Origin: Ianthella basta
Lineage: Eukaryota > Porifera > Demospongiae > Verongiida > Ianthellidae
Length of the DNA: 64,000 nucleotides
NCBI GenBank assembly: GCA_964019415.1
Contig: OZ025879.1
Span: 6,237,368 to 6,301,367, forward strand
Reading direction: 5' to 3'
A program made the position numbers and the translations under genes. Shown piece after piece: positions 10,627-63,439 of the stretch (position 1 is the first letter of the stretch; the number at the start of each line of letters is the position of its first letter). The notes below the pieces were generated by a model that worked only from the letters and a program-made list of their open reading frames with translations, had not been told where the DNA came from and did no database searches.

Positions 10627-10630
<4 letters not shown>

Positions 10631-15520: not shown

Positions 15521-15526
15521 TCAAGC

Positions 15527-15955: not shown

Positions 15956-16001
15956 CCTGAAGTCAGAGCGCACTTGTTGCCGAGCCGTTTTAACTGACAG
16001 A

Positions 16002-31999: not shown

Positions 32000-32020
32000 G
32001 CCAATGGTGAAGAGATGCAG

Positions 32021-32806: not shown

Positions 32807-32826
32807 GATCCCACCTTCGTCGCCAG

Positions 32827-33085
32827 TGTAATAACTTGGGTTCCAGTCGAGACGTCGAAACAACTTTCCCGCACTCAAACTCTAATCAATGAAACAGCGG
32901 TACAACAGTACACAAGCACTCTAGACTCTAGACTATTGAAAGTTACGGAAACATGCCAGCTAGTACACAACTGAGCAATTACAGATTCGCACCAAAAACG
33001 TTTTACAGGCAAGCACACAGGATAAATCAATTACAAGCCAAGCATCTACAAATACAACAAGCACATGCAAATCAAGTACACCACA
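32827..33085 (-). repeat. Gypsy-2 5' LTR
   Basis: 259 bp; the promoter end of the element on the minus strand. Confidence 0.95.

Positions 33086-34475: not shown

Positions 34476-34477
<2 letters not shown>

Positions 34478-34532
<55 letters not shown>
34478..34532. repeat. (TG)n microsatellite in E' intron
   Basis: Slightly longer than the orthologous tract at 10577-10626. Confidence 0.95.
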
Positions 34533-34536
<4 letters not shown>

Positions 34537-36606
34537 AGCACACACAAAATGTCAGCATACAGTGTTACCTTATAGGAGCAGACTTTGAATGCTTCACAGT
34601 TAACAACACACCACAGCATTACAGGATGCACATCCATACAGCCATTTACTAACTTTGCTCAAGCTGTGATAGCACTGCTGGTAGGGGTTGCACCACATCT
34701 GGAGCAGAAGCAGTTACTCCTACAGGCATCCTCACTCTGTTCCCATCAGAGGAGCACATCTCCACAAAGTAGGTGGCCCCAGGCATAGGTGTAGGCAGCT
34801 CCAATACCATGTCTTGTCTTAACTTCCACTTGGAGACAATTACCTCTGCCCTTCCTCCACAGCAGGCAATGGCAGTCATTAATTGGGAGTGAGTGTCAAT
34901 GGAGTCATAAGTCATCATCGGCTGGCTAGCATTAATGCTTGCTGCAAGAAGAGGCCTTCTCTCAGCTACACAAGGACAAGGACATCAGAGAGGTTGTTAA
35001 TGAGTCACATTAACTCATAATATGACAGCAAATCAGAGCATTAACTGGAGCTGACTTGGCATAGGATCACTTTACTGACTAATGTTAGACATTCAGATGT
35101 TTTGACATTATCCAGGGAGGGCACATACATGAAACTACTCAGAAGTGCTGTGTTTTTACATCACCTTGCTGTACATTCTCCTCATTAATCAGTTGTACTG
35201 GCCTCCCCGCTTCCATAGCACGCCTCTTGGCTCTTCTACGGCATCCAAAGATTACAGCACAGCAAAAAGCACAGAGAACAACAACAACTATTCCTACAGC
35301 TACACCGATGAACACCGGCACAGCCCAGTACTCCCAAGGTTTGGGGGATGAAAAATGAATCACTGACGGTACAAAGGAGAAATTGCCGATAAACTGTTTA
35401 GCTGAGGCAAGGCCATTGTCAGATACGTACTTGTCTACGACACACACAAAATTGCCTTCCACACTGGAATCCACTCTGCACCCGTCAGAGGGTATACCCA
35501 GAGAGTCTTAAAATACGTCAGTGGTGACATTGATGCCAAGCTTAAGGTGACAGGAGTCATTGCGGCAACTGCAGCAATTGAGGCTGTCAAAGAGACAGGC
35601 TGACTCGTCAGCCTCCACAAGTTTTGGCACTGCACAGACGTAGTACTCCAATTGCACATACAGGTCAATCTGTGGGTAGGCCGCACAGATTGCAGTGGCA
35701 CTGCCATTATTTAGATGGACTTCCCCTCGGCTCTGCGATTCATGGGGTCTCACAAACCACTCGGACATTTCTGCTGAACCTGCACACAAACAAGGTAAAA
35801 GGGAATTCCCACTTACTTATAGGAAACACTATACTTGGTTGCTTTACAAAAAGACACCAAACAGTTTCAATGTCAACAATGTTATAACCACTGACCTGGA
35901 TATGTAATGTATTGTTGAGCTGTCACGGTTTGCACAATGTTGGACACCTGACAATAGTAGGTTCGCTGTTGCTCAACATTACGAACAGTGGGTGTGAAGC
36001 ACAGTATCTGTGTGGGTAGAGTGGGGACAGGATACAAAAGCACTTTGGGCTCTGCTGAATACATATGTCACCTGTAGCATGTACCACACGTCAGTGCTAC
36101 ACATAATAGGATACAGTGTGCATGAAACAACTTGATCAAAACAACAGCTACAGTGGTTTTAAGGTCTTTAGTCCTGATTGACTTTGTTCCATGATGAGAA
36201 TAAAGTACATATTGGAAGGTATATTGCAAGTGCTTCAAGCGTAGGTCAAATAATGTGCAAATCTACCTTTTCAATACATTATGTACACAATTGGCGAAAG
36301 CAAAAAAGTCAATTCGGACAAGAAACCCTAAAACTACTGTATGAGTGTCAGAATATCATGCCCAGCTGCACCCCATGATTTGCTGAGGTTGATAAACAGT
36401 CACCTAATCTGCCACTGAGGTTGATAACAACTTATCACTGTGTGTGCAAAATCTAGCAACTCGCAGTATAATCTTCAGGGGCCAAGGTACATATGTAACA
36501 GCGCCTCTTGGATTGTTGCATCTTGGGTCTGCTAATTCAGGCCATATACATCACTACCTCATCCAGTGAACCATACCACACACTGCCTACACTCCAGGCC
36601 TCCATG

Positions 36607-36698
36607 TAGTCTGACGTAGCCCAGACCCACTTCCAGCCATTTTATATTGTGCAAAGGGTAGGAAGTGGCTGGAAGTGGGTCTGGGCTACGTCAGACTA
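36607..36698. mobile_element. 92-bp palindromic MITE with 10-bp TSD (copy in E')
   Basis: Same insertion as 12670-12761, with GGCCTCCATG on both sides and nearly perfect arms. Confidence 0.85.
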
Positions 36699-37918
36699 GG
36701 CCTCCATGAGGAAAGACTGATATAGGCCAAAATGCTACCTCACTCCAAGAACTATACATACCCAATCATTAGGGTACATATGCAAGACGTATACACACTT
36801 ACAATGAAAGTACCCAGTAAAAGAAACCTGTACAGTACACACCAGTAACGTCACATTACTGATCAGCCGTTGCTGTACTGTACCCTACATACCTCAGGTT
36901 GGTCCTTATAAAACGAGAGGCAGGGGTCACTGGATGCATTATAGAAATCTCCACTACTGTCATCATAGTACCACCAGTAGTGAGGATCAGGGTATCCTAT
37001 AGCAGAGCAGTTGATGCAGACCACTCCAGCACTGGTCTCCCCCAGTGGAACATTGAGTGTCAGAGGGAAGAGATCAAAATTGGTGGGACCACCATCTTCT
37101 TCTGTCCTTACCAGGAAGGTGGGAGGCACTGGGGTTGACAAAACATTGAGAGAGGGTCACAACATCAGCCAGCAGGCGATTGTCCTACATTTACCTTATC
37201 ATACACACCTGTCCAAAAGAGTGTATAGCAACTAGCTTACCAACTACGTACATGGAGACCTACAGTACTTTCATTCCTATGTTTGGTTGTAATGTGAACC
37301 ACTGGTACAACACATTAGTAACACCGTTGCCTAAGTGACATCATAAGTAGGTAATGGACAAACGATTCGCCTAATAGCGGGTGAACCTTGAGGTCATGAA
37401 TAAGTTATAGCAAAGTGTTTACATAGCCACTTCTAAGAATTACCACAATGGGCCATTACCTGCTATTTTGGGAAGTCACCACAATATATGGGCATGTATG
37501 TTAGAACCACTGCTGCCTTCCATATAATTACAGGCTTCCATTGAATATAATGTACTACTCACCTGGGAGTTCAACTTGAACGGCGAAGTACATGCTCTTG
37601 TCTTCCCCGCCACATAGGCACATGTAGCAACCTGAGGTTTTCTTATTTGTGACATTCACAGCAGCAAGCATTAGCGTCTTTGTCTGCTGGGAAAGCACAG
37701 TGAATACCGCCTCAGCCGAGTGGCTGAAGGACCATTGCACTTTGTCCTGGTCATCACACAGAGAGCATGTCAGAGCTAAAGAATAGTTCTCCACTGCTTG
37801 ACACAAGTTTGCATTAGGTCTTGGGCAATGGCCTTGGCCTATAACACAAGAAGAGGGAAGAGAGTCATTTCACAACAGATGCAAGACACTGAAGGGACTC
37901 CTTGGTCACAAAGGAAGA

Positions 37919-38323
37919 GGCCGTGTATAATTTTCGGACCAGAACGGACGACCGAACCGGACCAATACATTAGATAGGGACCTGTGCGGCGATCAAAAAG
38001 CTGCTACTCACACTTTTGCCCTTTGTATTGACTTGCCTTGCTTTCCATTGGTTTTCTGTGCGCTTGGTAAGACTCTCCAGTAAATTAGAGTGCTGTTCGG
38101 CTTGCGACAGGATGTTTATACATAAAATAGTAATTGTCAGTTAGCCGAATGGTGCTCTATCTGGAGAGTCGTACCAAGCACAGAGAAAGCCAACCTAGTG
38201 CAGACAAGTCAATACAAAGGACGAAAGTGTGAGTAGCAGCTTTCTGATGGACCGCAGAGGCCCCTATCTAATGTATTGGTCCGGTCCGGTCGGTCCGTTA
38301 TGGTCCGAAAATTATACCCGACC
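37919..38323. mobile_element. 405-bp MULE-type palindromic MITE
   Basis: The termini are GGCCGTGTATAATTTTCGGACC-like, and 8-bp AAGGAAGA duplications flank it (37911-37918, 38324-38331). The arms form an imperfect inverted repeat along most of the length. It is intron 1 material shared with copy E, where gypsy-1 interrupts it. Confidence 0.82.
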
Positions 38324-40330: not shown

Positions 40331-43300
40331 TTAAGCATGTTTACATAGGCCACAGTACCATGTATAGTCACGGTCACTCCATGCAGTTGAGGGGATGACT
40401 TCGCAATCATTATGAAACCATCCGTTGCAGCCATCACACATCTCCATGTTCTCCGACTTTTTTTCTGCTAGTCTGCAGTGGCAGTATACTTCAACTGTTT
40501 GAACTTTCTTCGTCTTGTTCTGGCACCTTCTTCTTTTACTAGGAAATGGTTGGAGTTTTTCTTTCTCAATACAGGCATGTAGATGTTGCCTCATTTGCGT
40601 AACATCAAATAACTGGTCTTCAGGATTTTGCCCTTTGCAAAGCGCTGTAGCAAAAGCTATGGCAAAAATACCACAGTCGTTACCGTTTGGCTGCCTTTGA
40701 ACATTGGCCCACTCGAGTGTGTGGTACTGGTTGGCTGTCATCTTCCGTTGGTTGGCTGCTGTGCACTTTGGCATCAGGTGCGGGTTCTATTTCATCCTCT
40801 TCTAGAGGGCCTTTTCGCCCCTTTCATTTGCTCGATTTTGGCCTAACGTTTCTTCTCAGCTGCGTCATTGTGATTCTTTTTGTTTTGTTTCTCACATCCA
40901 TGCCCATATACAGCTTTGCTGCTAAGATGTGATAGCATTCTGTGTTCGCAGGACAAGTGCAAGATGCCTCAGGAAATAGCTTGACTGCATGTGGACCAGA
41001 TGTGCCTTGCACCACAAATGTCTTCTGGTCAGCCTGGTATGAGCAGTTCTTGTTCCGCAAAACTAATTGAGCTCTACCCATCTGACTTGGTACTGGTTTA
41101 TTTGCTTCGGCTGTAGCTGGTGAAACCTTTTCAGGCTAAGTCCCTTTGTCATCGCCAGTTTCATCTTCTCCACCAGTGGTGTTTAATTCATTGGTGTCTT
41201 CATCATTCGTTTCACATTTGAGAGCAGTCTCGTTTAGGCCTCCATGATTCCTCTGCTCCATCATTTTTGCTGCAATTTCTTCAGGTGCATAGCAGTGCTG
41301 TAGATCCATCTCATGTACTGGTGTTCTCATTGATTTGAATGTGTCATGTAGACTGTACTGCCCTAGTCCAGCTAGACCTCGCTGTATTTCATTACTGAAA
41401 TAGCACTGTACAAAGTACAGTGCAAGCATCAGTGAGTCAATGGTACTTTCTTTTCTCTGAGTGAGGCTTTTCAGCAGTGTGTTGAAGCCTTCACTCTGAT
41501 TTGTGGTTACACCACTGTAGCGATTGTAGACTCCCAGTGGCTCAAGAATCCAACGGCCGGCAGCATCTGTCACCTCAGGGCCAATGTGGTGGTTGTAGTA
41601 TTCTACAAATGCTTGGCTCCATTTCTGACTGAGCACACCATACAATTGTCTGTAGTCCTTTTTGTTGATCTTGCACGTAAACACTACACTCGCTGGCAGA
41701 TGCATCATGCTTTCTCAACCAGAACCTGACCCCAGGCTGCAGGTGATTCCAGCAACAAAGATGCCTTACTTGAGGCAGTCGTTTTGCTATTGCTGTGATG
41801 ATGTTTTCCTCACCATCTGTTACTAAGGGTGCTTCAGCGATTTCTGGAACTTCTTTGGCAATGAAGTCCATGAAAATCTCATGAGCGAATAGAGTCCTCT
41901 TCTCGTGAATGAGGAAAGCTGCAGGCATGACTGGTGCACCCTTGAACAAAGTGTGCCTAAATAGAAGTGGTGACACAAAAAAATCGCCCAGATTGTATGT
42001 TGTATCATATGACACTAGCTGTGGCTGCTCTCCTTTTGTGCTCAGTACTGCCCGAAATTCTTGAAGCATTGCCCTGTGGGCTAATACAACACCTAGCTCT
42101 GGAATTAAAAACATCCTGTGGGTGAAGTCTTGAATGTCGAGTGTTAGCTCCACCATGTTGAACAGATCATCCTGTGTGTACCTTCTCTCCTTTCGTACCT
42201 GCACCTGTGCATTTTTGACCTGCCGGGGATTCCTAGGTTTCAGTGTTGCCTCATGTGTAGAAGGTACGCTAGAGCCTGCAACCGTCTCCTTATAGTGGGC
42301 AGAAGGATCTTTGTATGTCTCTCCTGCCTCTTTTAGCACACTTGGTGCTGTTCTGATATATGGATTGCTCTTTGCATTTCCATGTGGATAGAGAATACCC
42401 TTCTCTGGTACAGTGCCTGCATGTGAATACAGTAGTAAGAGAGTGTACACTCCATACACACTCCCACTACACAGGACACTCCATACACACTCCCACTACA
42501 CTGGACACTCCATACACACTCCCACTACACAGGACACTCCATACACACTCCCACTACACAGGACACTCCATACACACTCCCACTACACAGGACATTCCAT
42601 ACACACTCCCACTACACAGGACATTCCATACACACTCCCACTACACAGGACACTCCATACACACTCCCACTACACAGGACACTCCATACACACTCCCACT
42701 ACACAGGACATTCCATACACACTCCCACTACACTGGACATTCCATACACACTCCCACTACACAGGACACTCCATACACACTCCCACTACACAGGACATTC
42801 CATACACACTCCCACTACACAGCACATTCCATACACACTCCCACTACACTGGACACTGTATACACACTCCCACTACACTGGACACTTCGTAACACACTCC
42901 CACTACACAGGACACTGTATACACACTCTCACCGCACAGGATACTCCATACACACTCCCACTACACTGGACACTATATACACACTCCCACTACACTGGAC
43001 ACTTCGTAACACACTCCCACTACACAGAACACTGTATACACACTCTCACTGCACAGGATACTCCATACACACTCCCACTACACTGGACACTGTATACACA
43101 CTCCCACTACACAGGACACTCCATACACACTCCCACTACACAGGACACTCCATACACACTCTCACTGCACAGGATACTCCATACACACTCCCACTACACA
43201 GGACACTCCATACACACTCCCACTACACAGGACACTGTATGCACACTCCCACTGCACAGGATACTCCAAACACACTCCCACTACACAGGACATTCCATAC

Positions 43301-44158
43301 ACACTCCCACTACACAGGACACTCCCACTACACAGGACACTCCATACACACTCTCACTGCACAGGACACTCCATACACACTCCCACTACACAGGACACTT
43401 CATACACACTCCCACTACACATGACACTCCCTACACACTTCCACTACACACACTATGCAGGGCAGTCCTCACTTATGACTACGTTATTGTACATTAGAAT
43501 TATGTCTTATCTTTTCTTTTCCCCAGGTACATATTTCACTAGAACTCACCCAAGTACTGAATGAGGGTCCCTTGTTTCCCTTTTGGGTCATCAGCCAGGT
43601 GGTATACGACCTTCTTGAACTCCTTATTCTTGGCTGGACCCGCATCTCCATCAACAAGCAGTACGTAATAAGTCTTCTCCACCACTGGATTAGAAGTTGG
43701 TAGACATTTGCGCCCGTTTTGGAACCAACGGTAACCATCAGCTTTCCAGTCACCTGTAAAGTCCACATGACATTGTTATTTAGCTAATTCATGCTATTAG
43801 TACTTGATGTAATTTGATTATTTGTATTTATGTTTTATTACAACTTTTGTGTCTGTAGCTATCCTATTGGCTTGTTGTATCATGCATATCATTTCTTAGT
43901 GATGAAAACTGTATTATATTCCATACAGGAGATTGCTTAATCACATGCGTGCGCGATATTCTTGCACTACGACCGCAGCTCTGGATGCTCACCTTCTTTC
44001 CCTGGATTGTAGTACAGGAAGACAGTTCCTCCTAGGGGGCTGATGGGCGGTAAGGCTGCTGCGTTCTCTGTATCTTGCAGAAGATCATGCGCTCTTGATG
44101 CAGAAAGTTCTTGATTCGTTCTTTCTAACACGGGTATCTCCTCACTTTCAGGTTCCAT
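40331..44158 (-). pseudogene. MULE transposase: CG-1/WRKY-like domain, DDE, SWIM, partial Ulp1, PHD
   Basis: Exon 1 is 43993-44158 (ATG at 44158), exon 2 43550-43753, exon 3 from 42416 downward. Exons 1-2 encode a DNA-binding-like segment with DGYRWFQNGRK and LIQYLG, resembling CG-1 or WRKY/GCM folds. The MULE catalytic core follows: D in SYDTTYNLG, D in VTDGEENI, CCWNH, then E in TNQSEGFN. The SWIM finger is CTCPANTECYH. A Ulp1-like segment keeps the cysteine motif QPNGNDCGIFAIA, but the part that should carry the catalytic His and Asp was not found. A PHD finger (YCHCR...CDGC...FHNDC...WYCGLC) closes the protein. Breaks: a frameshift near 41660, an in-frame TAG at 41136-41138 and another frame change between SWIM and Ulp1 near 40800. 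Confidence 0.8.
42446..43451. repeat. 29-bp minisatellite, about 34 copies
   Basis: Unit of the type ACACTCCATACACACTCCCA plus CTACACAGG, repeated head to tail over about 1 kb with T/C and CA/TG variants. It lies in the intron between the second and third transposase exons of the MULE. The long plus-strand reading frame across it is only the repeat, which stays open in all phases because it lacks stops. Confidence 0.95.
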
Positions 44159-44527: not shown

Positions 44528-46240
44528 ATTTTATATGCTGACGTCATCGAAGTGGCCTAACAAGGTTAGGTACGCGGCGCGCGTCGAGTGCGGTCGAGCC
44601 ACGCATACGGTAGGTAACAATTGCAAACCTCCAGTATGCAATGGCTAGATAGCTATCCGTTCCTAGCCAATGGACAGTTATATACCTAGCTAGTTGTCCT
44701 CATCTGATAGCTATATAAGCTAGCTAGCTAATCCCGACAGCCTCTTCTCAACCAATAGATACCAATAATATCTATACATAGTTACGTACGCCATGTAATT
44801 TGAATAGCATGTAACTTGACTCATAAAATCAACATGCTGCAATGCACCATGTATGTTCACTGGTAGTCCTATGTGGTTAGCGGTCAAAGATCTCAAAACT
44901 GTTTCATGACCGAATGCTGGTTAGCTAGTATGTAGATTAACTATAAAGTCCTGCAATCAGTTCGTGATCATGATCAGTGAATCATTAGCTTAGTATTCAG
45001 AAACACATTCATCACAAGCTGTCTACCAATGCCACGATAGCAACCTTATTGGTCAAATGCCTAGGGGTTCTTTAATTGGTTTTGCAGGCATTTGCAACCA
45101 TGTCTCTAATTGTGGGTAATCCCAAACAAACAAACCCATATAAAGTTCATTATGGTCAGTTGGGATTCTCACTAGTAGCTACTCCCACCATGCAATTATG
45201 ACAAAGAGGTGAAATTTGTGAATCTGCATGGATGTTAGCCACACTAGGCAAATTCCCAACATCTCATCCCTGCATGTACCGAAGGGCAACTCAAAGTGCA
45301 TGCCAAAAGGTGTATGTGAAATACGAATAGCTGTTAGATTCCCCTAACGATGCCACTGCTAGTTACAAGTGAATCATCTTTGAATTACACATGCACACAA
45401 CCTAATCTATCAAACTACAATTGAAGACTAACTGAGTGGCTATAGGCATCTCATATGTCAGTGATTTCAGGTAACCACTCTAGGAAGGGGCTGGTGTCAA
45501 ACTACAATTACCTTGATGAATTATTGGAAGATACTGTTACAGACTACTTTCAGCCTATAATGTAGCTGATGATCATGAACCACTTGGCCAAGCTGTTCAA
45601 TGGCATTTTGTTGAGTGCAGGTGAATTGGCTCGGGAACATGAAACAGCGGCAGTCCCCTCCCCCTACTCCAGTGTTACATTATACTAATTTTTGTCAGAT
45701 ATAAAACAAAGGTGTGCATATATTACTACACATGTTCATGGTAAAAATAAATTGCACACAACATTAAATAACAAACTTGTTACATCTTTATAATTATAGT
45801 CAGCATAATTATGTAATGTGCATATAGATAGTCAAAGGTCAAGAATTGATTGCATGTTCCGAACGTTATGTTTCAATTAATAGCTAGCTATGTACACCAT
45901 GGACTAAGGTATATTTTCAGAGCTATAGCTACATAACATTATGTAGATAAGGGTCCAAGAGAGCTTACAATGTTATGTAAATGTACATTACTTCCTTAAT
46001 TCCTGCGGCACATGCAAAATGCACAAAAAACATGCAGTGAACATCGCCTTGCTGCAAATGGAGTGAAGTTGCAGTAAGCGGGTAATCATGGCTTCCTTTG
46101 TGTACCTGTCCTCACAAGACAGACCATGCACACACCAAGAGGCTGGTGAAGTCCCAATCAACCCCAACTGCAAGACTGCAGATTATTATGCATAGTGAAA
46201 CCACACAAGGAATGTACAACAACAGACTTTAGTCTACCTG
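44528..46240. other. Non-coding end of duplicated block E'
   Basis: Alignable with 25405-27500. No exon supported. The first 20 bases contain the CRE-like octamer. Confidence 0.6.
44539..44546. promoter_or_regulatory. CRE-like palindrome TGACGTCA (block E')
   Basis: Counterpart of 25429-25436. Here the MULE has been inserted between it and the first exon of copy E'. Confidence 0.4.
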
Positions 46241-46248
46241 AATAATTA

Positions 46249-47063
<815 letters not shown>

Positions 47064-47419
47064 ATTTGGCCATTTTTAACCTTGCAACCAACCTGATATA
47101 TGGTATTAGTCCCACACAAAATAGTGTGTAAGATGGTAGATGCACTGACAATTGCAGTCGCAATGCAGCGAATTGCCTTATTGCAGTCCAGTAACGTTAT
47201 AACAATACTATTAACTGTATGAAAGCATCAAATCAATGCAATATCAGGAAATACACTTGCAATCTGCTTACAAAGAGCATACAGTTCAAGAGCAATGGTT
47301 ACATAACTGAACACTATAAGGAGTTAATTGGAGTTGCATCCTATAGTAATGCTATTAAAGCAACTCACACAAAAGTAACAGATACATACGGTCTTGTGAC
47401 ATATGGGGGGCATGTATAA

Positions 47420-50400
47420 CTACTTTACATTCTGAACGGCCGAACAAAGTTTTCTTGCAGCATTTTGGTTTCCATTATCATCATGACTCTCAAGAGCATC
47501 AATGAGTCGGTGCACATTACCCTCAAATACATGAATAGACCATCTATTCAGAACTGAAAGGACAAAATACCTTCCTGCGGCTGGTTGGTTGTGCCCCAGA
47601 ATGTGTGAGTTAATGTCACCCATTTCCTGTTCTGTCAGCAATTGGCGCTGATGTAATTGAGCTAACAATGTGCTATCAAGATTCAATTCCGTTGCCAACT
47701 CACACTGAATCTTCTGCACTTGCTCAAACAAAGCTATATACAGAGGAAGGGCAGAAATCACATTAACTTTGAATAGGCCTGAACGGCTAGGGAGCTCACA
47801 CATGCTTGGATGGATTTGCACTGGCCAGGGTTCTCAGCAATATTTAGACATTCTGGCAGCTGAGGCTAGCTGAAAACTGCTAAAATATCTAAACTTTGTA
47901 GAGAACCCTGGCCAGTAGAAATCACATTATGTTTATGTGCAGGAAGGCTGAAAGCTAATCAAAGCTATGCACTATACTGTGTATGCATGCACACATGCAC
48001 ATATATCTGTGCACACACATAATTATGTTCAACACACATTGGTACAGAATCACAATACATACACTTATGTGTATGCACATACGTACACACAAATGTACAC
48101 ACATCCTTATAGATATACACCTTTTCCTTGCATTCCACTGATTGTCAAACAACTACCACTTGTACTACTTTCCACACCTATGGGCAAAAGGAGATTATAC
48201 TATGTCATGTGATCATTTACCAATAATGCGCATTGTGCACATGATGCATGCTTGTGCACAAATACAATTAAATTTATGAGAGATGCGCATATTCTTGTGT
48301 GCACTTACTTGAGCATCTAGCAACTGAAAACATGATGATAACGGACTTATTCCCATAGTACACCACAAAGCGGTACTGATTCCCGGCCTCCAACCCAATC
48401 TTATCCGGAATGACACACTCAAAGGTATCAGACACAGTGGAATGAGGAGTAAGTTGTAAGTGATACTTGTCAGGCCCAGCATGGACTGTGAGTGATGGCA
48501 TGTCTGCAGTGATGCCAGGGTTGGGGTGATAGGGCTCTAACTCCAGTGGCTGTTCATTTTTTGAAAAGGCATTGCGCAGTTTTCTTGCAATATTCTGATT
48601 TCCACCGTCTTCATGGCTCTCAAGAGCTACAGTCAGTTGGCTCACATTTCTCTCAAACTTTTCTGGTGGCCACTGAAACAAAACAGAATTGACAAAATGT
48701 GTTCCTGCAGCTGAGCTGTTATGTGCCTGAAGGAATGCATTAATGGCATTGAATTCTTTTTTTGTCACCAGTTTACGTTGATTCAACTGTGCCAACAATT
48801 TCCCATCAAGATGCAATCCTTGCTTCAATGTACCATGCATCTTTTGTACACGGTTGTACAAAGCTGTATAAAGCAAGTGGTGACCATAATTGATATTCCG
48901 AGGCAATCCATGTGCGTGCACATGGCAAATGTACACACATACGCACACAGGATTCAGCAGATTAAACCTTGCCCATGTACATGACTGTTCAACATATGAT
49001 TAGTGCTTGTCACAGCTAGCTTTGTGCATGCATGTGTGCTCACTTACATGAACACTTGGCAGCTGTAAAGGAGACATTTACAGATTCATTGTCACAGTTA
49101 ACTACAACTGTATAATCTTTCTTTGCCCGAATGATCTCATCTGGAATAGTGTACTCAAAGGTATCAGGAGTAGTACATGAATGGACAGTGGGCTGAGAAT
49201 GAACTTCATGCTGTCCAGCATAGACTGTGATTGATGGCATATCTGCAGTCAATAGATAGAAGGGTGTGCACATTTGCAGTAGGCAATTGGCACTACAGAC
49301 AAACTACATACCATTCTGTCTAACTGCAAATTATGAGCATTGCAGTCAAAGCAAAGTAGAGCATGTATGCAGGTACACCATATATAACCATGCAAGTATA
49401 ACACGTAACTGCTTGACATGCATGTACAGTGATGTATTTTAAACAATCATACTTTCAAGAGATTCAGATACTCCTTTGATTGAAATAGTCTGGCCTGTTA
49501 CATCTGCATTTGAAGCAGATGAATGTGCTAGTGTTGCATTCACTGTAAAGATGAAAATAAGTACAGTGAATGTGTGCTCAAATTCATCACAGATAAGACA
49601 AAACTACTGACATGGGACAAATTATAACAGTAATGCTATTTTACTTCCATAAGCTCCATCTATATTCCACATTCTAAGAATTGGACCATCCCTGATACCA
49701 CCTGTACAGATGCAGACCTATACTCAATGGTGTACATTGTCTATTCATGATTTATACTATATGTATAGTAATCCCAAAAGGTGAGTACCTGTGAATATGT
49801 CTTGTTTGTCCTTTCTCCTCTTGCAATATTTACAGCCAACCCCAGTTGCAGTACTAAGCAGAATGGCCAATGCCAACACAATTACAACACCCGCAGCTGC
49901 AGTCTCGGGTCTAGCAATACTGCCATTCACTGTTACTTCTGTATCAGAGCCAGCTGATGGTGATGGCTTCACGTCAGTTAACCCAATCAGCTGGTAGACA
50001 GGTAGTGAATTGTCATTCTGCTGACGCCTCGCGAAGAACAGTAAACGCTGCTCCTTGGAAGTTGTAAAATTACATCCATCTGTGCTCAGTCCAAGCCCAT
50101 GATTGCTTGCGATTGTAGCTTCACTCATTCTTAGATCCAAGCCCGGGTGACAAGGTGCTGCAGTACAGGGGCAGCATTTACCTTCATTGTAGAACAAGTC
50201 AAAACTGCAGGCCGGGTTGTCTGTAGGAGAAACTTTAGCTGTCATGTTTGCACAGATATAGTACTTAATGCCAAAGTCAGATGCAGCAACCACACCAGTT
50301 GCTTGTCCTTTAGTAAGATGTATTGTTGTGCCACTTTGAGCAGAATGGGGATGGAGTAGCCATTGTCCTGTGAAATTAATGGAGTCACATTATTACTAAG

Positions 50401-52588
50401 TGAAATGTAAATGTGGACATTCATGATCACACATATAACTTACTAGTGTCAATATTAACATGTTGCACTCCGGTGATGGTACCATTGTGAAGTCCATTCT
50501 GTACTGTACATGAGAATACCAGATTTTTCTTTGTATTCCATGGGGTGGGAATGAAGTTCAATTTCTGCAAGTGTGAAGGCTACCCACAATGAACATAGTA
50601 AGATACACAATACAATTATAACACTATACACATGTCTGGTGGACCCATGATAATACACATGATATCTATATTTTCATACAATAAAGCATGTAAATGTTTT
50701 TTCTTATATACAAGGCCACACTTCGCCACTTCTGTCAGATTACTATGAAACATAAAATAACAATATTACAGGACTTCTATACCTTGCCACCATCTTTGAC
50801 TCTGTTACAAGAATCACCAATGTCTGTGCCATTGACTATGACTTGCCAGGTGTAGGTGGGGTCTGGGTAGCCAGTAGCACTGCAATCAACAACTACTATC
50901 CCACTGACTGAGGCATTCAATATCACAGAACGATTATAAGGTTGGAGCTGGTACACATCTTTATGTCCACCATCAGTTTGCACAGTGAAGCTTGGCTTAG
51001 CTGTAAGAGAAAGATTGGAGTGATTCTGACACATTGCTACATGACATACTGAAGGTGCAAATATAATACTATGCATTGAGAATTTGGCTTGGAATGTGAA
51101 GTACAAAGGCAATGGCCAGTAATATGCAACAGTTTACATACGTGCATATGTACTACTGATAATATTCTTTAAAGATTAGCCACACTTAAGACACAGGCCC
51201 CACATAGAGGGTGAAGTCCCACTCAACCACAGGGTGTTTTACCTATTCTGTATAGATAGGGAACAAACCCATCACCCCCCCCCCCACACACACACACAGA
51301 CCTAAGTACATACACAAGTATGGGATGCGGAACTATGAGTGCAGCAGGGTGTTTATAGCAAGTGTCACAAACACCTGCCCAGACGATTATATCATGCAGT
51401 AATGCAATAGATGTACACAGCATATATACTCAGTGGAATCTGTCTATCAAGACGGTCACTATGTTAGGCAGCGAACTCTCTGAAACATGCAGCCAGCCTC
51501 CCTGGCCACAAATAACACTAAAGAATTGTAATCTAGCTCTGTAGAGCAGCCATCTCTCTATAATGGTCATGCAGTTAGAACTGGCCCTCAGGTGGTTGTC
51601 TTCGACGGGTTTCCTCTGCTGTTATGCAAGCACCATGCAATCAGGTGTAATTTTACTGCCAGCATACACACCTCCTGCAGCCACTGTGACTGAAAATTTC
51701 ACTCCGAATACCAATCCAGCTACTTCACACTGGCATTGGTAACAGCCTGCAGCTTCTGTGGTAACATTCCTTGCAGAAACATGGAGGGTTTGACTAGTTG
51801 TCTTCAAATCCACCTCCTGACCTGAGGTGTATGTCACAGTCCAGCTAACATCTATCCCATTTGGACAAGCCCAGCACTCCACATCAAGGGAGGCATCCAA
51901 TACAGCTTGGCAGAGGTAAGCATCCTCACTGCCACAATGAGTAGAGCCTGGTGAGTAAAACAATTAAATTTAATGGAAATACGTACAACAGACCTACCAT
52001 ATACTCGGACAGCCTTTCCTACCATGCAGCCATATAGCTAGCAGTGTGCACGTTGAAGCAGCTAGCATATATTTATAGTCCCCGGAATTTCAAAGAATAG
52101 CTTATAATAATTCTTTCACTGCTTCAGTTGAGGGAAACTGATAACCTTTCAGTTGTGCGGTCAGCCGAGGAAGTTGGTCCCCAACGACCGAGCCAAAACG
52201 GCTACTTGACCACGGACTATGTAAGTGAGCATCTTCTAGTTGATTCCATGGAGTTAGCTAGGGAATGTATCGCCCTTTCATCGCTGCACGGGCCTTGCTT
52301 ACAGCTCACTTTACCTAGATCTGTCATGGCCCGCTACATGGTATATATATTCCGTGCGCCACACGTACACACGCACACTCTAGCGTGCGAGAGTTCATAT
52401 AGAGATCAATGCTCCCCAACGGACATAGAACCCAGTTAGCTAGCCATGGCCATAATACTTATACTTCCACTCTTACCTGTTGGCCTGGTATGATTCTGGT
52501 CGCACAAGAAGTGTATACCTCTCACCACTGTCGCTAGGAAGCCCAATACTACCAGTTCTGTCAGCGCTATGGAGCAGTTTCTCCACAT
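47420..52588 (-). CDS. Gene B: Ig-domain transmembrane receptor with two CARD-like domains
   Basis: Nine exons: signal peptide 52477-52588, Ig1 51672-51947, Ig2a 50783-51000, Ig2b 50444-50564, Cys-rich plus TM 49789-50367, linker 49453-49542, beta module 1 49048-49242, CARD1 plus beta module 2 48309-48863, CARD2 47420-47733. They join to 819 codons plus stop with no break. Residues 1-25 are a signal peptide; Ig1 (about 38-129) has CW..C and GCYQCQC; Ig2 (130-242) has VVDCSATGYP and VFSCTV. The membrane-proximal domain has YYICANM and CHPGLDLRM. A helix (VVIVLALAILLSTATG) precedes basic CKRRKDKQ. The CARD-like bundles share the RKLVTKKEF / RQLLTEQEM helix 2-3 signature. Likely role: surface recognition coupled to a death-fold cascade. 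The linker donor (GTATGA at 49452) is the least certain splice. Death-fold subtype is by pattern only. Confidence 0.85.
52350..52434 (-). promoter_or_regulatory. Conserved block at start of intron 1 (gene B)
   Basis: Contains CGCACACTCTAGCGTGCGAG and CTCCCCAACGGAC. It recurs in gene C (60728-60815) and in copy D (63082-63174) better than the surrounding intron. It is a candidate intronic enhancer or a structured splice element. Confidence 0.35.
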
Positions 52589-53130
52589 CTTGTACCGTCT
52601 TAACTTTAGTCACTACAGATTAGAACTAGATCCCTGACTGAGCGGGCCTTGGTTATATGGACTTGGTACTACAGTACTGATGTCCACCACGTACGTACTA
52701 TATGTTCCCAAGTAGCAGTATATAAATTATATAACAAACGAGGTTTGAGCAGAAGTCGGTTTCTCGAGACTAGACAGTTGCGAAGCGCGACTAAATACAA
52801 TTTTAACTGCAGATTGACGAGGGTATTCCCCTTCAACATTTACTAGACTACTAAAAATAGCATCACTTCAGTCCTGTACAGGCTGCAAACAAGGCAAAAA
52901 TCGATCAAAAACTTATATATTGTGTGCCCATGCACACAGTGTGGGTCTATGTACATTTTATATAGCACTTATATACCTTTCCACAGCTGCTGCCCTGCAC
53001 AGTTGCATTATTTCCGATCCCATGCACTTGAGAGCCATGAAGATGGTGGAAATCAAAAGATTGTAGGAAAGCTATGCAATGCCTATTCAGAAAGTTAATA
53101 GCTACAACTTGTGCGCACACAACACGCGTA

Positions 53131-53174
53131 CACACCCACACACACATACACACATGCACAACCACACACACACA

Positions 53175-53219
<45 letters not shown>

Positions 53220-53221
53220 AC
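53131..53221. repeat. (CA)n microsatellite between genes B and C
   Basis: About 90 bp of CA with ACAC(C)C interruptions. It is equivalent in position to the tract at 63592-63656. Confidence 0.92.
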
Positions 53222-53279
53222 ATGTGCATACATGTGCTCACCCACACACCCACACACGCATGAACATGTGCACAGCGTA

Positions 53280-54155
53280 GCATTAACGTTCTTCAGTTGT
53301 TAAATTCACACCAAAATGCAACCCCTACATGGATGCACAGTCCATGCATGCATAATATAAATCATATGGCAAGCTGCAAATGGGTCCAAAGGCATTGTAC
53401 ATACAACTGTACACTATTAGGAGTTGGAGCTGCATTACAAACCACACTATAATATTATAACTACACAAATGAAAGTGACACAGTTAACTGTTGACAGTGG
53501 TGGATGCAGCTTCAAGACTTTGATCATGTACCCAGTCTACCTTCTAAAATGGCCCTATTAATTTTAGTTTTCTTGCAGCACTTTGGTTTCCATTGTCATC
53601 ATGACTCGGAAGTTCTTCAGTTGTTAAATTCAAATACATAACACACCAAAAGTCATGCATGCATAATATGTAATTATATGGCCAGCTGCAGCTGCTAGTA
53701 AAGCATGTGTATAATGCCAGTGTATGTCACACAGCTTGGCTGCATGTGGCAGGTAGCTGGGGATTGAGCTGACTCCTCAAATCTAATCTGGTAGGTCCAT
53801 TGAATGAATCTCATGCATTCCACGTAGGCTATATCTATTGCTACAGATATATGCACTCACTAGATTAAATCGCATGCAGTCATGATCACGTGTACAATGC
53901 AATGCAACATTTTGCATTTGGATAAGAATATAATGCATAGCACCTTCTGCTTTGTTCAATGACCTTGTGAAAGCAACAAAATCAATGCAGTATCAGATAT
54001 CTATTAATTATAGCATAATAATAATATTAATCTGTAATGGAGGTACACACAATGGATCACAGTAGAATGTATAACTCTATACTATACGGAGGCAGATCGA
54101 GTTGTATAGACAACAATGTTCAACTACGTACAGTACATACATGAATGTGACACAC
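53280..54155. other. 3' flank of gene C, shared with copy A and right edge
   Basis: No exon. It matches about 1190-1748 and 63680-64000, marking one tandem unit boundary. A short degenerate CARD2 fragment may lie at 53575-53610 (CACTTTGGTTTCCATTGTCA). Confidence 0.6.
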
Positions 54156-57100
54156 TTAACTGTTTCCATTGGTGAATGCAGCTGCAGGACAGGGGTCATG
54201 CATTTCCAGTCCACATTCTACCAAGGCCCTCTGCAGTTTTCCAGCGACAGCTTGGTTTCCACTGTCATCGTGACTCTGAAGAGCTTCAATGAGTTGGCGT
54301 ACATTGCTCTCAAACACTTCAAAGGACCATCCAAACAGAACTAAATTGACAAAATGCCTTCCTGCTGCTGATTGGTTGTGCCCCAGAATGTGTGCGTTAA
54401 TTGCATCGACTTCCTCTCGTGTCAGCAATCGGTGCTCACGTAGTTGCGCTAACAAGGTCTCATCAAGACTCAATCCAATTGCCAGCTTACTCTGAATCTT
54501 CTGCACTTGCTCAAACATGGCTAAATGCGAAGATAGGGCATATAAATTGTATTAAGTGTGCTTGCAAGAATAAGTAAATGGCTGAAAGCTACACAAGGCT
54601 ATGCACTCCTGCGTACATGTATATGCACACATTAAATGCACACACATTCATACAACCCACTCATATACAGCTATATACACAGAGTGACACAGATGAATGC
54701 ATGCACGTGTACACATAAATACTAATGTACAGATCCCTATGTGCACCTTTTCCACGCTTTCCACTGTTTGTCAGACTATTAACACTAGTACTACTATCCA
54801 TTCCTATGAGCAGAAAAGAGATAATATACAATGTCATGTGGTCGTGTACTCATTTATACGCTTCATGCATGCGTACATGCTTGCATTGAATATATGAAAA
54901 ATATTTGTGGACACTTACTTGAATACCTAGCAACTGAAAAAGAGACAATAACAGACTTATTGCCATAGTTCACCACAAAGCGGTACTCTTTCCCTGCCTC
55001 CAACCTAATTTGTTCTGGAATGACACACCCAAAAGTATTGGGAGCAGTGGAATGAGGAGTAAGTTGTAAAGGATATTCATCAGGCCCAGCACGGACTGTG
55101 AGTGATGGCATGTCTGCAGTGTTATCAGGATTGGGGTGATCAGATGGCAGCGGCTGTTCACTTTCAGAATATGCATTACGCAGCCTTCCTGCAATCTTTT
55201 GGTTTCCACCGTCTTCATGGCTCTCAAGAGCTTCAGTCAGTCGGCTCACATTGCTCTCAAACACTTCTGGTGGCCATTGAAACAATACAGAATTGACAAA
55301 ATGTCTTCCTGCAGAAGGGCTGTTGTGTGCCTGAAGGATTGCATTAATGTCACTGAATTCCTCCGTTGTCAACAGATTGCGCTGATTCAACTGTGCCAAC
55401 AAATCCCAATCAAGATGCAATCCTCGCTCCAATACATCATGTATCTTTCGTACCTGATTGCACAGAGCTGTATAGGACAAGTGCATGGTGACCATATTTG
55501 AAATCACAGAAGTAGCCCATGTACTTGCCCCAAAAAATAGTACGAGTGTACACATATACACACACACATGATACACACTAAATACAATTCACGAACAGCA
55601 TATTGAACTCTGGCTGTATGATACATTATATGTGTGATTCGTACATGTCACATGTAGCTCTGTGTGCACAGACACTTACACGAACACTTAACAGCTGTAA
55701 AGGAGACATCTACAGACTGATTATTACAGTTGACCACAACTCTGCAATCTTTCTTTGCCTGAATAATCCCGTCTGGAATGGTGTACTCAAAGGTATTGGG
55801 AGAAGTACAATGGGCAGTTGGATGCAAATGATGTTCATCCTGACCAGCGTGGACTATGACTGATGGCACATCTGCAGCTGTTATATAGAAGAATGCACAT
55901 GCCTAGAGTTGGCACTGTATGAAAACTGCATGTATATATCACACTATTGCTTATACCATTGTCTGCAAGGTCCAAGACTGGAGTCATTGCAATGCAGAAA
56001 GGTATACAATAGCACTATATTCATATAAACAATAAGTAACTGCATGCTTGCATTATGCATATAGTGGATGTACCTGAGTATGCAGCTATCATACTTTCAT
56101 GATACTCAGACACTCCATCATCAGGAATAAGTATTGGCTGTTCTGTTGCATCAGTATCTTCGCCAGGTTCAGCTAAAAGCGATTCATGCAAGCTTGGATT
56201 CCCGTGCACTATTAAGATGGAATTGAGAACAGTGCATGTGCTCATCACAGATAGATGACAAAACTGTTACTATTATAACTAAGCTATCTTAATGAAAGAC
56301 AACGTTCGGAACTACACATGGTAAGGAAAGAGGGGGGAAGGGGAAAATGGCAGTGAACTGGACCAGCACCGGCAACCTCCAGATCTTTAGCCGACCCTTT
56401 AGCAGCCGGGTCACTGGTCACCGCCAACAGCCATTGATCCATTCCCTCCATATATACCAATGTGGGCGGGCTCTATCCAGAGCCTCCTTTGAAACTCCCA
56501 CACTGGGCACTGACTAATCAGTGACTTATCGGAAATGTTGATTAAGATGGTCTATGTACCATGGTGACGCTAATGAAAGACAACGTTCAGAACTATACAT
56601 GGTAAGGAAAGAGGGGGGAAGGGGAAAATGGCAGTGAACCGGACCAGCACCAGCAACCTCCAGATCTTTAGCCGACCCTTTAGCAGCCGGGTCACTGGTC
56701 ACCGCCAACAGCCATTGATCCATTCCCTCCTTATATACCAATGTGGGCGGGCTCTATCCAGAGCCTCCTTTGAAACTCCCACACCGGGCACTGACAGTGG
56801 ATCAATGGCTGTTGGCGGTGACCAGTGACCCGGCTGCTAAAGGGTCGGCTAAAGATCTGGAGGTTGCTGGTGCTGGTCCGGTTCACTGCCATTTTTACCT
56901 TCCCCCCTCTTTCCTTACCGTGTGTAGTTCCGAACGTTGTCTTTCATTAGCGTCACCATGGTACATAGACCATCTTAAGTTATCTTACCTTCCCCAAGAT
57001 CTCCCTCTATAAACAGATGCAGAAATAGGTAACAGGTAGAGAAGAAAACAGAAAGTGTAAAGCGTCCATGCATGGTGTTATGATAACTATATCAATCCAA

Positions 57101-60100
57101 AAATACTAACCTGCAATTTGCTTGTTTTGTCTTCTCTTGACATATGTTATACAGCCAATTACTACAGCTGCTATAATACAGATTGCCAAAGCAATCACGA
57201 CACCCAGTGTGAAACCTACAATTTCTCCTGCTCCTAAGCTGGGACTAGCTATAACAGTTGGTGATGACTTCACTTCAGTAAACCCAATCAGCTGGTAGAC
57301 CTTTGAAAAACTGTTATCCTGAAACTTCCTTGCAAAGAACAGTAAATGCTGCTCCGTGGAAGTTGTAAAATTACATCCATCAGTACTCACTCCAAGCTCT
57401 TCACTGACTGTGACTCTAGTTTCACTCATTCTTAGATCCAAGCCCGGGTGACAAGGTGATGCAGTACAGGGGCAGCATTTGCCTTCATTCATGTACGAAT
57501 CAAAACTGCAGGCCGGGTTGTCTGTAGGAGTAACTGCTGTCATGTTTGCGCAGATATAGTACTCAACGCCATACCTTGATACGGCAACCACACCAGTAGC
57601 AATCCCGTTAATAAGATGCATCACACTGCCACTCTGAGTATGAACTGGATGCAGCTGCCATTCTTCTGTAAATTAATGGATGCATATTAAAATGTATTGA
57701 CGTTAGCGTTCATGTATCACAGAACTCACCAGCGTCAATATCAATTTGTTGCACTCCAGTGATGGTACCATCTTGAAGGTCATTCTGTACTGTACATGTG
57801 AATAACATCTGTTCTTTTGTATTCCATGGTGTGGGGATGAAATTCAATTTCTGCAAGTGTGAAGGTAGCACCCACAATGAACACGGTGGGGTACACTACA
57901 TTTCATACTATATGGTATGGTATAGACAGCCTGCTATCTGCAGCATGAACGAGAGAAGAGGCGCAATTTGCAAGTATGAAGAACGGATATGTGAAGTGGA
58001 GCATGCCTCCTTTGTACCCCTAGTGCTGTCCTGCACCGGTGGAGCAGGTCCCTGTGCGATCAACTTTTTCCAAAGGCTGGCAGCCCTGCAAGCTGAGAAA
58101 CACCACTCCACCTACAGCATGGTGATGGAAGTGCTTCGATGTCACTTCAGCTCAGCTATCACATGTCTCAGGAGTGCAAGGTCATCCTTTCACCACCCAG
58201 GCCACATTGACATGAGCACCGTGTACCTTGCAATGTCCAAGGGTAGGGTGGAGTGTGATTAACTAATGACTTCCTGACTATACATCATCTCATTATTTGC
58301 TGTTTTTGTCAACTTCATTGCTATCTACTCTGTTTTAATCATGTTGCATCACAATCTCTTGTTTTGTGCTTGATTTATTATCTGTACCTACCCATCTGTA
58401 TTAGTATTGTGTGTATGTATGTATTATAGACCCATGATTAGCTATATTATATTTACATGGTGCGAGCACACAATAGCACAATTAATGCAATACGTATACA
58501 GTTTTTCTTAATATAAAACAATATTTATTTATTACCGTATATCGCAAAATTTTCGCTACCTATAATTTCGCGAATTGCTGCCAAAACGGGTGTCAGAAAT
58601 GTTCGCGAATAAAAATTTTGCGAAGGAGACTCTACAAGGTGGACATTAAATCCTTTTTAGCGTAAATAGCAGGAATAATGGCTTCTGAAATCCAGCAAAC
58701 GGAAGAGCTACACGCTGTTCGTTGATCCGCCATTTTATGGTGACATCACGCGCATACACAAGTTATTATTATACCATAGGTATTATATGCATATAAAATT
58801 CGCGACAGAAATGTTCGCGGATTTGCTTCATTCGCGAAATTCGCGAAAATTATTGGTCGCGAACATTTTGCGATATACGGTATATATATAGTGCAAGTAC
58901 ATAGCTATGAACATATATTGCCACTTTATCGCCACATATTGCAACTTTCTGTCCAATTAAACAAGTAATATCAAGAGTAGATTAGAGATGTATTCATAAT
59001 AATTGCCGAGCCGAAAGGCGAGGCAAGTAATCGTGATGCGTTGTCGTCCCCCGTTTGTATGTATGTATGTATATATGTATATTCGTCCCAGTCAACCTGA
59101 GACACCTAGATTGCGCAATAGCCCGGTGTTCTCCGCAGGCGCTCATGACAATAAAACGCTCTACTTGGCCACCATCGGCTACGAAACTGCTCAACACTTC
59201 ACATCATTGCTGCACGCAGCGTTCAGATTGTTGGTAACGTCGCCCATTGCTTCAGCGAGGGCTACACGCCTGTTTGGCATACAAGAATCACCGATTGCTG
59301 TCAGATTATAGTTAAACATAAAATAATAATATTAAAGGAATTCCATACCTTGCCACCATCTTTGACTCTGATGCAAGAATCACCAATGTTTGTGCCATTG
59401 ACTGTGACTTGCCAGGTGTAGGTGGGGTCTGGGTAGCCAGTAGCACTGCAATCAACAACTACTATCCCACTGACTGAGTCATTCAATATTACCGAACGAT
59501 TATAAGGTTGGAGCTGGTACACATCTTTATGTCCACCATCAGTTTGCACAGTGAAGCTTGGCTTAGCTGCAAGAGAAAGATTGGATTGATGCTGACACAT
59601 TGCTACACATGGTGCAAAATATAACAGTATAGAGAATCCTTTGGCTTGGAATGTAAAGCCCATTGGACATGAAATTGAACTGTTGTTGCATGTGAGCAGC
59701 AGCAGCTTACTACAGGAAGAATATTGTTTAAAGATTAGTCACAAGACACAGGCCCCACATGGAGGGTGAAGTCCCACTCAACCACAAGGTCCATTATTCA
59801 TTGTGTAGAACAAAACCCCCTAACACAACACAACTACTTATATACACAAGAACCGGATGCAGAGAATACCTGTACTGCATGGTCAGCAAGTGTAACAAAC
59901 ACCAGCTGAAGCATGTCAAGAGCAATGCAATAGATGTACAATTACACACTACACACTGTTATATGAAAGCACCATGCAATCAGCTGTGCTAATTTAAACT
60001 TCTTGCACTGGCAGCATACCTCCTGCAGCCACTGTGACTGAAAATTTCAATCCAAATAGCTCTCCTGCTACTGCACATTGGCATTGGTAACAGCCTGCCA

Positions 60101-60972
60101 CTTTTGTCGTGACATTACTTGCAGAAATGTGGAGGATTTGACTGGTTGTCTCCAGCTCCACCTCCTGACCTGAGGTGTCTGTCATAGTCCAGCTAACGTC
60201 TATCCCTTTGGGGCATTTCCAGCACTGAACATCGAGGGAGGCATCCAATACAGCTTGGCACAGGTAAGCATCATCATTGCCGCAAAGAGTAGAGCCTAGT
60301 GAAAGACGCATCATTCAATGAAATGTCCTGTCATACTCGGACAGCCTTTTTCTACCAGCCATATAACAATGTGCACAGCGAAGTAACTAACATTGACCCG
60401 GAAAGTAGAATAGAAAAGCTAAAAATTCTTCGCTGATAACAGTAACTTGAAGCACTGAAATAAACTGACATATTTTAAGCTGAACTATGTGCAAGAAGGA
60501 AGTCGCTCCCCAACGACCGTGCTACGCAATTCTATATAATTGGGGTAGCTACGAGACCACTATTGGACAACGTAAAAATGACCACCCTCTTGTTGATTAG
60601 CTGCTTGGGGTTAGCTTGGGAATGCATCGGCCATACATTGCTACTTAGGGCTACTTACTGGCCAACTCGCTCGCTCGCTTTACCCCATGCAGCTATACCT
60701 CACATCTCTATATAGCTTGTAGCGGTATCCCGTGCGCCAGACGTCCGCACGCACACTCTTAGCGTGCGAGAGTTCAGCTAGTGAATAATGCTCCCCAACG
60801 AACGAAACTAGAAGCCATGCATGCAGCTATCAAACTAGCCATAGCCATATCCATTCTTACTTGTCTTCCTGGTATGCGCCTGGTCGCACAAGAAGTGTCT
60901 CCCTGCCACCACTGCCACTAGGAAGCTCAAGTGCACTAGGATCGTCAGCGATTTGGAGCCGTTGCTCCACAT
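54156..60972 (-). CDS. Gene C: Ig-domain transmembrane receptor with two CARD-like domains
   Basis: Nine exons: signal peptide 60861-60972, Ig1 60020-60295, Ig2a 59349-59566, Ig2b 57730-57850, Cys-rich plus TM 57111-57665, linker 56074-56208, beta module 1 55680-55871, CARD1 plus beta module 2 54919-55467, CARD2 54156-54520. They join to 840 codons plus stop, all boundaries phase 1 except the phase-0 intron in Ig2. ATG at 60972 leads to LVHLSFLVAVVAG, a good signal peptide. Approximate residues: Ig1 38-129, Ig2 130-242, Cys-rich 243-390, TM 392-415 (followed by YVKRRQNK), beta 473-536, CARD1 537-625, beta 650-719, CARD2 720-820. The linker is acidic (LAEPGEDTD) and longer than in B. Large introns hold MITEs and a LINE fragment but no exon is hit. 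Function by analogy: surface receptor recruiting CARD partners. Confidence 0.87.
56292..56974. mobile_element. Composite palindromic MITE with TTAA flanks in gene C intron
   Basis: Three copies of a module of about 200 bp (TGAAAGACAACGTTC...): 56292-56510 and 56571-56790 head to tail, and 56800-56950 inverted. The complete element is 56546-56974, with inverted ends GATGGTCTATGTACCATGG and TTAA on both sides (56542-56545, 56975-56978). That target is typical of piggyBac- or Kolobok-type elements. It lies between the TM and linker exons. Confidence 0.75.
57925..58263 (+). mobile_element. LINE reverse transcriptase C-terminal fragment
   Basis: The open stretch encodes EVEHASFVPLVLSCTGG, then LAALQAEKH, a LRCHFSSAITCLRSAR block and a stop. 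This resembles the segment after the RT domain of non-LTR retrotransposons. The rest is missing. It is antisense to gene C and lies in the intron within Ig2. Confidence 0.6.
58535..58880. mobile_element. 346-bp MITE with TCGCGAA-rich ends and TA duplication
   Basis: Inverted ends CCGTATATCGCAAAATTTTC / complement of GAACATTTTGCGATATACGG, with TA on each side. No coding capacity. Located in the same gene C intron as the LINE fragment. Confidence 0.8.
58990..59285. other. Unassigned insertion between MITE and Ig2a exon
   Basis: Sequence from CCGAGCCGAAAGGCGAGG to about 59285 is absent from copies A and B at the matching intron. Short (TATG)n at 59057-59085. Probably a repeat fragment; no family is recognised. 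Confidence 0.4.
60728..60820 (-). promoter_or_regulatory. Conserved block at start of intron 1 (gene C)
   Basis: Counterpart of 52350-52434, with CGTGCGCCAGACG, CGCACACTCTTAGCGTGCGA and CTCCCCAACGAACG. Confidence 0.35.
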
Positions 60973-62090: not shown

Positions 62091-62722
62091 CTTCTTGCAC
62101 TGGCAGCATACCTCCTGCAGCCACTGTGACTGAAAATTTCAATCCAGATAGCTCTCCTGCTACTGCACATTGGATTGGTAACACCCTACCACTTTTGTCG
62201 TGACATTACTTGCAGAAATGTGGAGGATTTGACTGGTTGTCTCCAGCTCCACCTCCTGACCTGAGGTGTCTGTCATAGTCCAGCTAACGTCTATTCCTTT
62301 TGGGCACTTCCAGCACTGAACATCGAGGGAGGCATCCAATACAGCTTGGCAGAGGTAAACACCTTCACTGCCACAATGAGTAGGGCCTAGTGAGAAAACG
62401 TATCAATGACAACATGACAGACCTGCCATACTAAGGCAGCATTTTCCTACCAGATATATAACAATGCGCACATTGAAGCAGCTAGCATATTGTCCCCGGA
62501 AAGTGGAATGGAATAGATTGAAATTCTTTCACTGCTTCAGTTGAGGTATACGGAAAGAAACTGAAACCCTGTAGTTGTACGTACGTGCAGGCGAGGAAGT
62601 CGCTCTACAACGACCGTGCCAAAACGGCTACTTGACCACGAACTATGTAAGTGAGCATCTTATATATAGATTATTTAGAGTTAGCTAGGGAATGTATCGC
62701 CCTTTCATCACTGTGCAGGATT

Positions 62723-63007
62723 CAGTGGCGTATCTATAATTTTGAGTAACCCGGGCACCTGGCGCGGGCTCTCTGGGCTTACCACCTCAATCCTAGGCCG
62801 CCATACCACCTTAGGGGGTCTGGGGGCATGCCCCCAATGAAATATTGAGGATTTTAGGTGTTCTGAGGTGCGTTCTGAGGCTAAATCCACTGCTGACTAC
62901 TTCATCTCAATTAACTACTAAGCTACTAGTTAGGCTAGTTTACCAGGGCACAAGTGAAGTTGATCAGGGCATAGGCCCTGGTAGGCCCTGGTGTAGATAC
63001 GCCACTG
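62723..63007. mobile_element. 285-bp hAT-type MITE
   Basis: Ends CAGTGGCGTATCTA and its near-complement (GTAGATACGCCACTG), with a perfect 8-bp duplication GCAGGATT (62715-62722, 63008-63015). It contains the GGGGGCATGCCCCC palindrome common in such elements. Inserted in intron 1 of copy D. Confidence 0.88.
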
Positions 63008-63081
63008 GCAGGATTGCTTACAGCTTGATCACTTTGCCTGCCTATGCCATGGTCACACACCTATAGTAGTGGCCGTTGGTA

Positions 63082-63174
63082 TTCCGTGCACCATGCAGAC
63101 GTTAAAACGCACACTTTGGCGTGCGGGAGTTCGTAGCGATCATGCAATTCTCCAAACGGACGAAACTAGAACCC
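63082..63174 (-). promoter_or_regulatory. Conserved block at start of intron 1 (copy D)
   Basis: Counterpart of 52350-52434 and 60728-60820, more diverged (CGCACACTTTGGCGTGCGGG). Confidence 0.3.
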
Positions 63175-63439
63175 AGATATAGCCATAGCCATATACTTCC
63201 ACTCTTACTTGTTAGCCTGGTGTGATTCTGGTCGCACAAGAAGTGTGTACCTCCCACCACTGTCGCTAGGAAGCTCATGATCAAGACTGCCAGTTTCGTT
63301 AGCGATATGAAGCCGTTGCTCCACATCTTGTACGGTCTTTAGCTAACTTTAGTATATTGCCGCAGATTGGAACTATCACTGACTGAGCCTGTACACCTTG
63401 ATTATATAGACTTGGTATTACTGACTCCCACCTCAGAAT

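Follow-up and report, generated by a model that had tools for sequence, protein, structure and literature searches.

Receptors that join immunoglobulin (Ig) domains outside the cell to signalling domains inside it are known in several forms. The UNC5 netrin receptors follow the plan Ig, transmembrane helix (TM), ZU5, UPA and Death, with TSP1 repeats. Sponge IgTIR and the IL-1R family carry an Ig ectodomain and a TIR domain in one chain. CARD signalling has been described mostly for cytosolic sensors and adaptors. RIG-I and MDA5 are cytosolic helicases with adjacent CARDs, and two CARDs in one chain can nucleate assembly, as in RIG-I. In this study, we analysed a window of 64,000 nucleotides from the sponge Ianthella basta (assembly GCA_964019415.1, contig OZ025879.1, here C12:6237368-6301367), in which two adjacent minus-strand genes, A and B, are predicted to encode single-pass Ig receptors with CARD-type tails. 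The genome searched comprised 209 Mb in 96 contigs.

The predicted receptors resemble UNC5 in being single-pass, with two predicted Ig domains outside and beta modules followed by a death fold inside. They appear to differ in lacking TSP1, ZU5 and UPA, to which the exons scanned gave no Pfam match, and carry instead a Cys-rich domain and small beta domains without a family name, with CARDs where UNC5 ends in Death. Like IgTIR and IL-1R, they would join a predicted Ig ectodomain to an innate-immune assembly domain in one chain, but the tail is CARD or Death, and the exons scanned gave no Pfam match to TIR. Unlike the cytosolic RIG-I and MDA5, they would be membrane-tethered, with a beta domain between the CARDs; no DExD helicase follows the tandem CARDs, as the chain of genes A and B ends after CARD2. 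The Hydractinia Alr genes also form a cluster encoding Ig-type transmembrane receptors, likewise in an early animal, and their tails are not known to be CARD or Death. Because UNC5 and IgTIR/IL-1R already join an Ig ectodomain to Death or TIR in one chain, the general kind of receptor is known. To our knowledge, what is new is the use of CARDs as tails, the domain order beta-CARD-beta-CARD and the exchange of CARD and Death tails within one cluster.

Gene structure and domain identity

A sequence-only reading of this DNA had proposed two adjacent minus-strand genes of nine exons, and the positions it gave for their outer limits (47420 and 60972) and for the last exons (47420-47733 and 54156-54520) were exact. 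Splicing the minus strand at GT-AG sites reproduced gene A, from 52588 to 47420, as nine exons and 819 amino acids, with intron phases 1,1,0,1,1,1,1,1. Gene B, from 60972 to 54156, has nine exons and phases matching those of gene A. Its nine-exon splice gives 833 amino acids instead of the 840 codons proposed, and an extra micro-exon near 57002 may have been counted in. The nine-exon set was also incomplete: between the exon for CARD1-beta2 and that for CARD2 sits a tenth, 48-57 nt long. With a pattern filter, this linker exon was recovered in six of seven copies of the family and was absent from the result for copy E. Its inclusion gives predicted proteins of 838 (A) and 852 (B) amino acids. 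The features of both genes, all on the minus strand, are as follows.

52477-52588, minus: gene A exon 1, signal peptide
51672-51947, minus: gene A exon 2, Ig1 (Pfam ig 18.6 bits, cut-off 21.8)
50783-51000, minus: gene A exon 3, first half of Ig2 (Pfam Ig_3 19.2 bits, cut-off 30)
50444-50564, minus: gene A exon 4, second half of Ig2
49789-50367, minus: gene A exon 5, Cys-rich domain and TM helix
49453-49542, minus: gene A exon 6, juxtamembrane linker
49048-49242, minus: gene A exon 7, beta1 domain
48309-48863, minus: gene A exon 8, CARD1 and beta2
48121-48177, minus: gene A linker exon, 57 nt, phase-neutral (pattern filter)
47420-47733, minus: gene A last exon, CARD2 and stop
60861-60972, minus: gene B exon 1, signal peptide
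60020-60295, minus: gene B exon 2, Ig1 (Pfam ig 16.9 bits, cut-off 21.8)
59349-59566, minus: gene B exon 3, first half of Ig2
57730-57850, minus: gene B exon 4, second half of Ig2
57111-57665, minus: gene B exon 5, Cys-rich domain and TM helix
56095-56208, minus: gene B exon 6, juxtamembrane linker
55680-55871, minus: gene B exon 7, beta1 domain
54919-55467, minus: gene B exon 8, CARD1 and beta2 (piece used for structure prediction)
54747-54803, minus: gene B linker exon, 57 nt (pattern filter)
54156-54520, minus: gene B last exon, CARD2 and stop

The TM helix had been described as running directly into tandem CARDs. This was not the case, and the order is TM, linker, beta1, CARD1, beta2, CARD2. 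The single-pass topology agreed with the prediction, as the 12 most hydrophobic 19-residue windows of gene B all lie at residues 389-418. For the Ig domains, the Cys-Trp-YxC pattern is present and the Pfam scores (18.6, 16.9 and 19.2 bits) are all under the cut-offs. The CARD assignment likewise fell short in Pfam, where matches reached 13.6 and 19.4 bits against a PF00619 cut-off of 23.9, and it was borne out by structure prediction and fold comparison: the predicted model of gene B CARD1 is a six-helix antiparallel bundle with CARD topology. CARD2 is placed as a CARD only through its 52-58% identity to CARD1, and beta2 of gene B gave weak fold matches. Sequence and model thus support the view that the tails of genes A and B are death folds of CARD type.

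Six copies of the family carry tandem CARDs of the same kind (A, B, C, E, F and C32). In all six, the beta1 and CARD1-beta2 exons retain both splice sites, acceptor and donor, and the Cys-TM and CARD2 exons retain their acceptors. The mean pairwise ratio of nonsynonymous to synonymous substitution (dN/dS) was 0.52 for Ig1 (6 pairs), 0.43 for Ig2a (10 pairs) and, with 15 pairs each, 0.57 for Ig2b, 0.74 for Cys-TM, 0.60 for beta1, 0.51 for CARD1-beta2 and 0.56 for CARD2. Single pairs reached 1.0-1.24 (Ig2b, Cys-TM), and every exon mean stayed below 1, which indicates coding constraint of modest strength on ectodomain and cytoplasmic exons alike. No exon compared contained a stop codon. Since the splice sites are kept in six of six copies, the means lie between 0.43 and 0.74 and the exons are free of stops, the exon pattern is more than chance.

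The intron after the TM exon of gene B holds a short repeat in inverted and direct copies (56284-56943), by eye probably a small mobile element. A long CA-type microsatellite lies just 3' of gene A (46199-47131), and a minisatellite of roughly 1 kb lies at 42357-43497; in both, repetition leaves several frames open.

A tandem family with two kinds of tail

The sequence-only reading had omitted the beta domains, the tandem family, its Death-tailed sisters (two of them within the window) and the exchange of tails. A genome search with the CARD2 exon of gene B gave 20 matches, of which 13 fall within C12 6.206-6.370 Mb, and the Cys-TM exon gave 16. A distant Cys-TM subfamily gave 10 matches (C12 6.366-6.405 Mb, C12 6.594 Mb and C89); one of these, 6594055, was already among the 16, and another is a short fragment with two stops. 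For each of the 16 copies, the tail type was assigned from the first same-strand exon matches downstream of it. Tandem CARDs like those of A and B followed in 6 of 16 (the copies named above), divergent CARD-like exons in three (6326708, 6347528 and 6594064) and Death exons in six (6318663, 6312917, 6272584, 6248712, 6226224 and 6199865). In the remaining copy, 6212970, a beta1-like exon is all that is left of the tail before the start of the next gene. A Death exon at 6198078 has one stop, and in copy 6226224 the Cys-TM and Death exons both showed none. Besides genes A and B, the window itself holds the following copies and exons of the family.

33566-37869, minus: sister D2, with Ig1, Ig2, Cys-TM, two beta-like stretches and a Death tail (33566-33973)
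9664-13925, minus: sister D1, with a Death tail (9664-10071)
1749-4842, minus: copy C, with Ig2b, Cys-TM, beta1, CARD1-beta2, linker and CARD2
62113-63326, minus: orphan signal-peptide and Ig1 exons upstream of gene B, with the Ig1 frame broken

D1 and D2 are 95% identical over 4642 bp (9600-14188 and 33502-38131), and both are broken in the Cys-TM exon by different lesions: an in-frame stop near 35508 in D2 (6272584) and a frame break near 11345 in D1 (6248712). In copy C, Ig1 and Ig2a were looked for upstream and not found. Between D1 and D2 lie apparent retrotransposon and transposon frames. Two groups of long gag-pol-like frames on opposite strands (14389-19401 and 28890-32881) look by eye like reverse transcriptase and integrase, and a 522-aa open frame (21054-22622) has the look of a THAP-type DNA transposase.

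On their own, the Death exons of the window (9664-10071 and 33566-33973) had no Pfam match. One of them finds distant relatives in the genome at 29-39% identity (E 4e-7 to 2e-4). Two of the five relatives scanned passed the Pfam Death cut-off of 22.6 bits (L056, 30.6; L059, 28.7), and L053, L055 and L057 fell under it. A Death profile built from nine sequences returned 13 PDB rows (THOC1, RIPK1, PIDD, Fas, CRADD), with E values of 6e-4 for one row and 0.014-0.91 for the rest. The tails of two copies at locus L046 matched this profile with 95% probability (E 3.7e-8); a phmmer search of one of these tails against PDB found nothing. The CARD and Death profiles gave no mutual match. Together, the relatives and profiles support the reading of the sister tails as Death domains.

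The CARD repertoire of this genome is very large. At least 110 exon-level PF00619 matches, all above the cut-off, are listed genome-wide, with 150 of 367 candidates scored.

Probable exchange of ectodomains and tails

The Cys exon of copy C resembles those of copies F and A, and its CARD exons resemble those of B. For the six CARD-tailed copies, a small set, a tree built from the Cys-TM exon was compared with one built from the CARD exons. In the Cys-TM tree, copy C grouped with F (73% bootstrap), near A; in the CARD tree, it grouped with B (92%). Each data set rejected the other's tree (AU test, p 8e-6 and 1.7e-14).

Two neighbours at locus L070, g1 and g2, share 87.8% DNA identity across a 1672-bp stretch that takes in the Cys-TM exon, and this identity stops just beyond that exon. 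g1 continues into a CARD exon 56% identical to gene B CARD1 (L016), the one CARD exon found there. g2 continues into a Death exon, which scored 15.6 bits with Pfam Death, below the cut-off, matched the Death profile (92.6%, E 4.5e-7) and is 40% identical to an L046 tail. The splice donor of its TM exon is ambiguous, and g2 may be non-intact. Past its Death tail, an open frame on the minus strand (L070 6302-6694) scored 21.1 bits as CARD_2-like (cut-off 28.2) and is possibly a second tail domain of g2. Between the two L046 copies, identity is 96.3% across 2682 bp and then 74.7% in the Death tails. From these comparisons, ectodomain and tail modules appear to have been re-paired by exchange between neighbouring copies. 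The exchange would have been by recombination or gene conversion, which would look alike, and probably took place in the introns, most of which are of phase 1.

Proposed function and alternative readings

We consider it reasonably probable that this is a tandem family of single-pass receptors, with a signal peptide, two Ig domains, a Cys-rich domain, a TM helix and a tail of beta and death-fold domains (CARD-CARD or Death), whose modules are exchanged and in which ligand clustering nucleates CARD assembly. Sequence and structural models support the predicted gene structure, both types of death-fold tail, the common ectodomain family and the tail exchange. We infer that the genes are expressed, and the ligand, clustering, partners and output would be as follows. 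A surface or microbial ligand would bind the Ig and Cys-rich ectodomains and cluster them; the tandem CARDs would thereby be brought together, nucleate a CARD assembly and recruit CARD-bearing partners. Candidate partners are encoded where CARD-scoring exons immediately precede caspase exons in the same orientation, at two places on C38 and one on C5. Sisters with Death tails, whose ectodomains are of the same type, may feed Death-domain partners. The adaptor-free signalling and the immune or allorecognition role put forward earlier are likewise proposals.

These proteins might instead be adhesion or guidance receptors of UNC5 type, with tails serving as dependence-receptor or cytoskeletal modules outside immunity. 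The similar plan described above makes this worth weighing, but the exons scanned gave no Pfam match to ZU5, UPA or TSP1, and a recombining, partly decaying tandem cluster fits recognition families better; we regard it as improbable. Somewhat less probable still are inhibitory or decoy receptors whose CARDs cap signalling, like CARD-only proteins, instead of nucleating it. The CARDs of the receptors diverge from other CARDs in the genome and L070 g1 has its single CARD exon, in line with this idea; the tandem CARDs of RIG-I and MDA5 are nucleators, and nothing speaks directly against it. Separate neighbouring transcription units for Ig-TM and cytosolic CARD proteins, never one chain, are very unlikely: the joining does rest on predicted gene models, the juxtamembrane linker exons of A and B show little conservation, and a Met codon, a potential start, opens beta1 in four of six copies (A, C, F, C32), but Val replaces it in B and E, the order Cys-TM, beta1, CARD1-beta2, CARD2 is constant in all six, the acceptor before beta1 is conserved with matching phase 1, and the same kind of TM exon also precedes Death tails.

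If the receptor reading holds, a membrane receptor with its own tandem CARD tail would be a direct route from the cell surface to death-fold signalling. More tentatively, the family may work by mix and match, with a diversifying pool of Ig and Cys-rich ectodomains joined by exchange to a few outputs (CARD-CARD, single CARD or Death) and serve an early animal in sensing pathogens or in allorecognition on the surface of its cells. One recognition specificity could then be rewired to another death-fold pathway. Near-identical ectodomains with CARD or Death tails offer a natural experiment on the evolution of receptor-effector pairing, and the cluster is a candidate complex of genes by which an animal could tell self from non-self.
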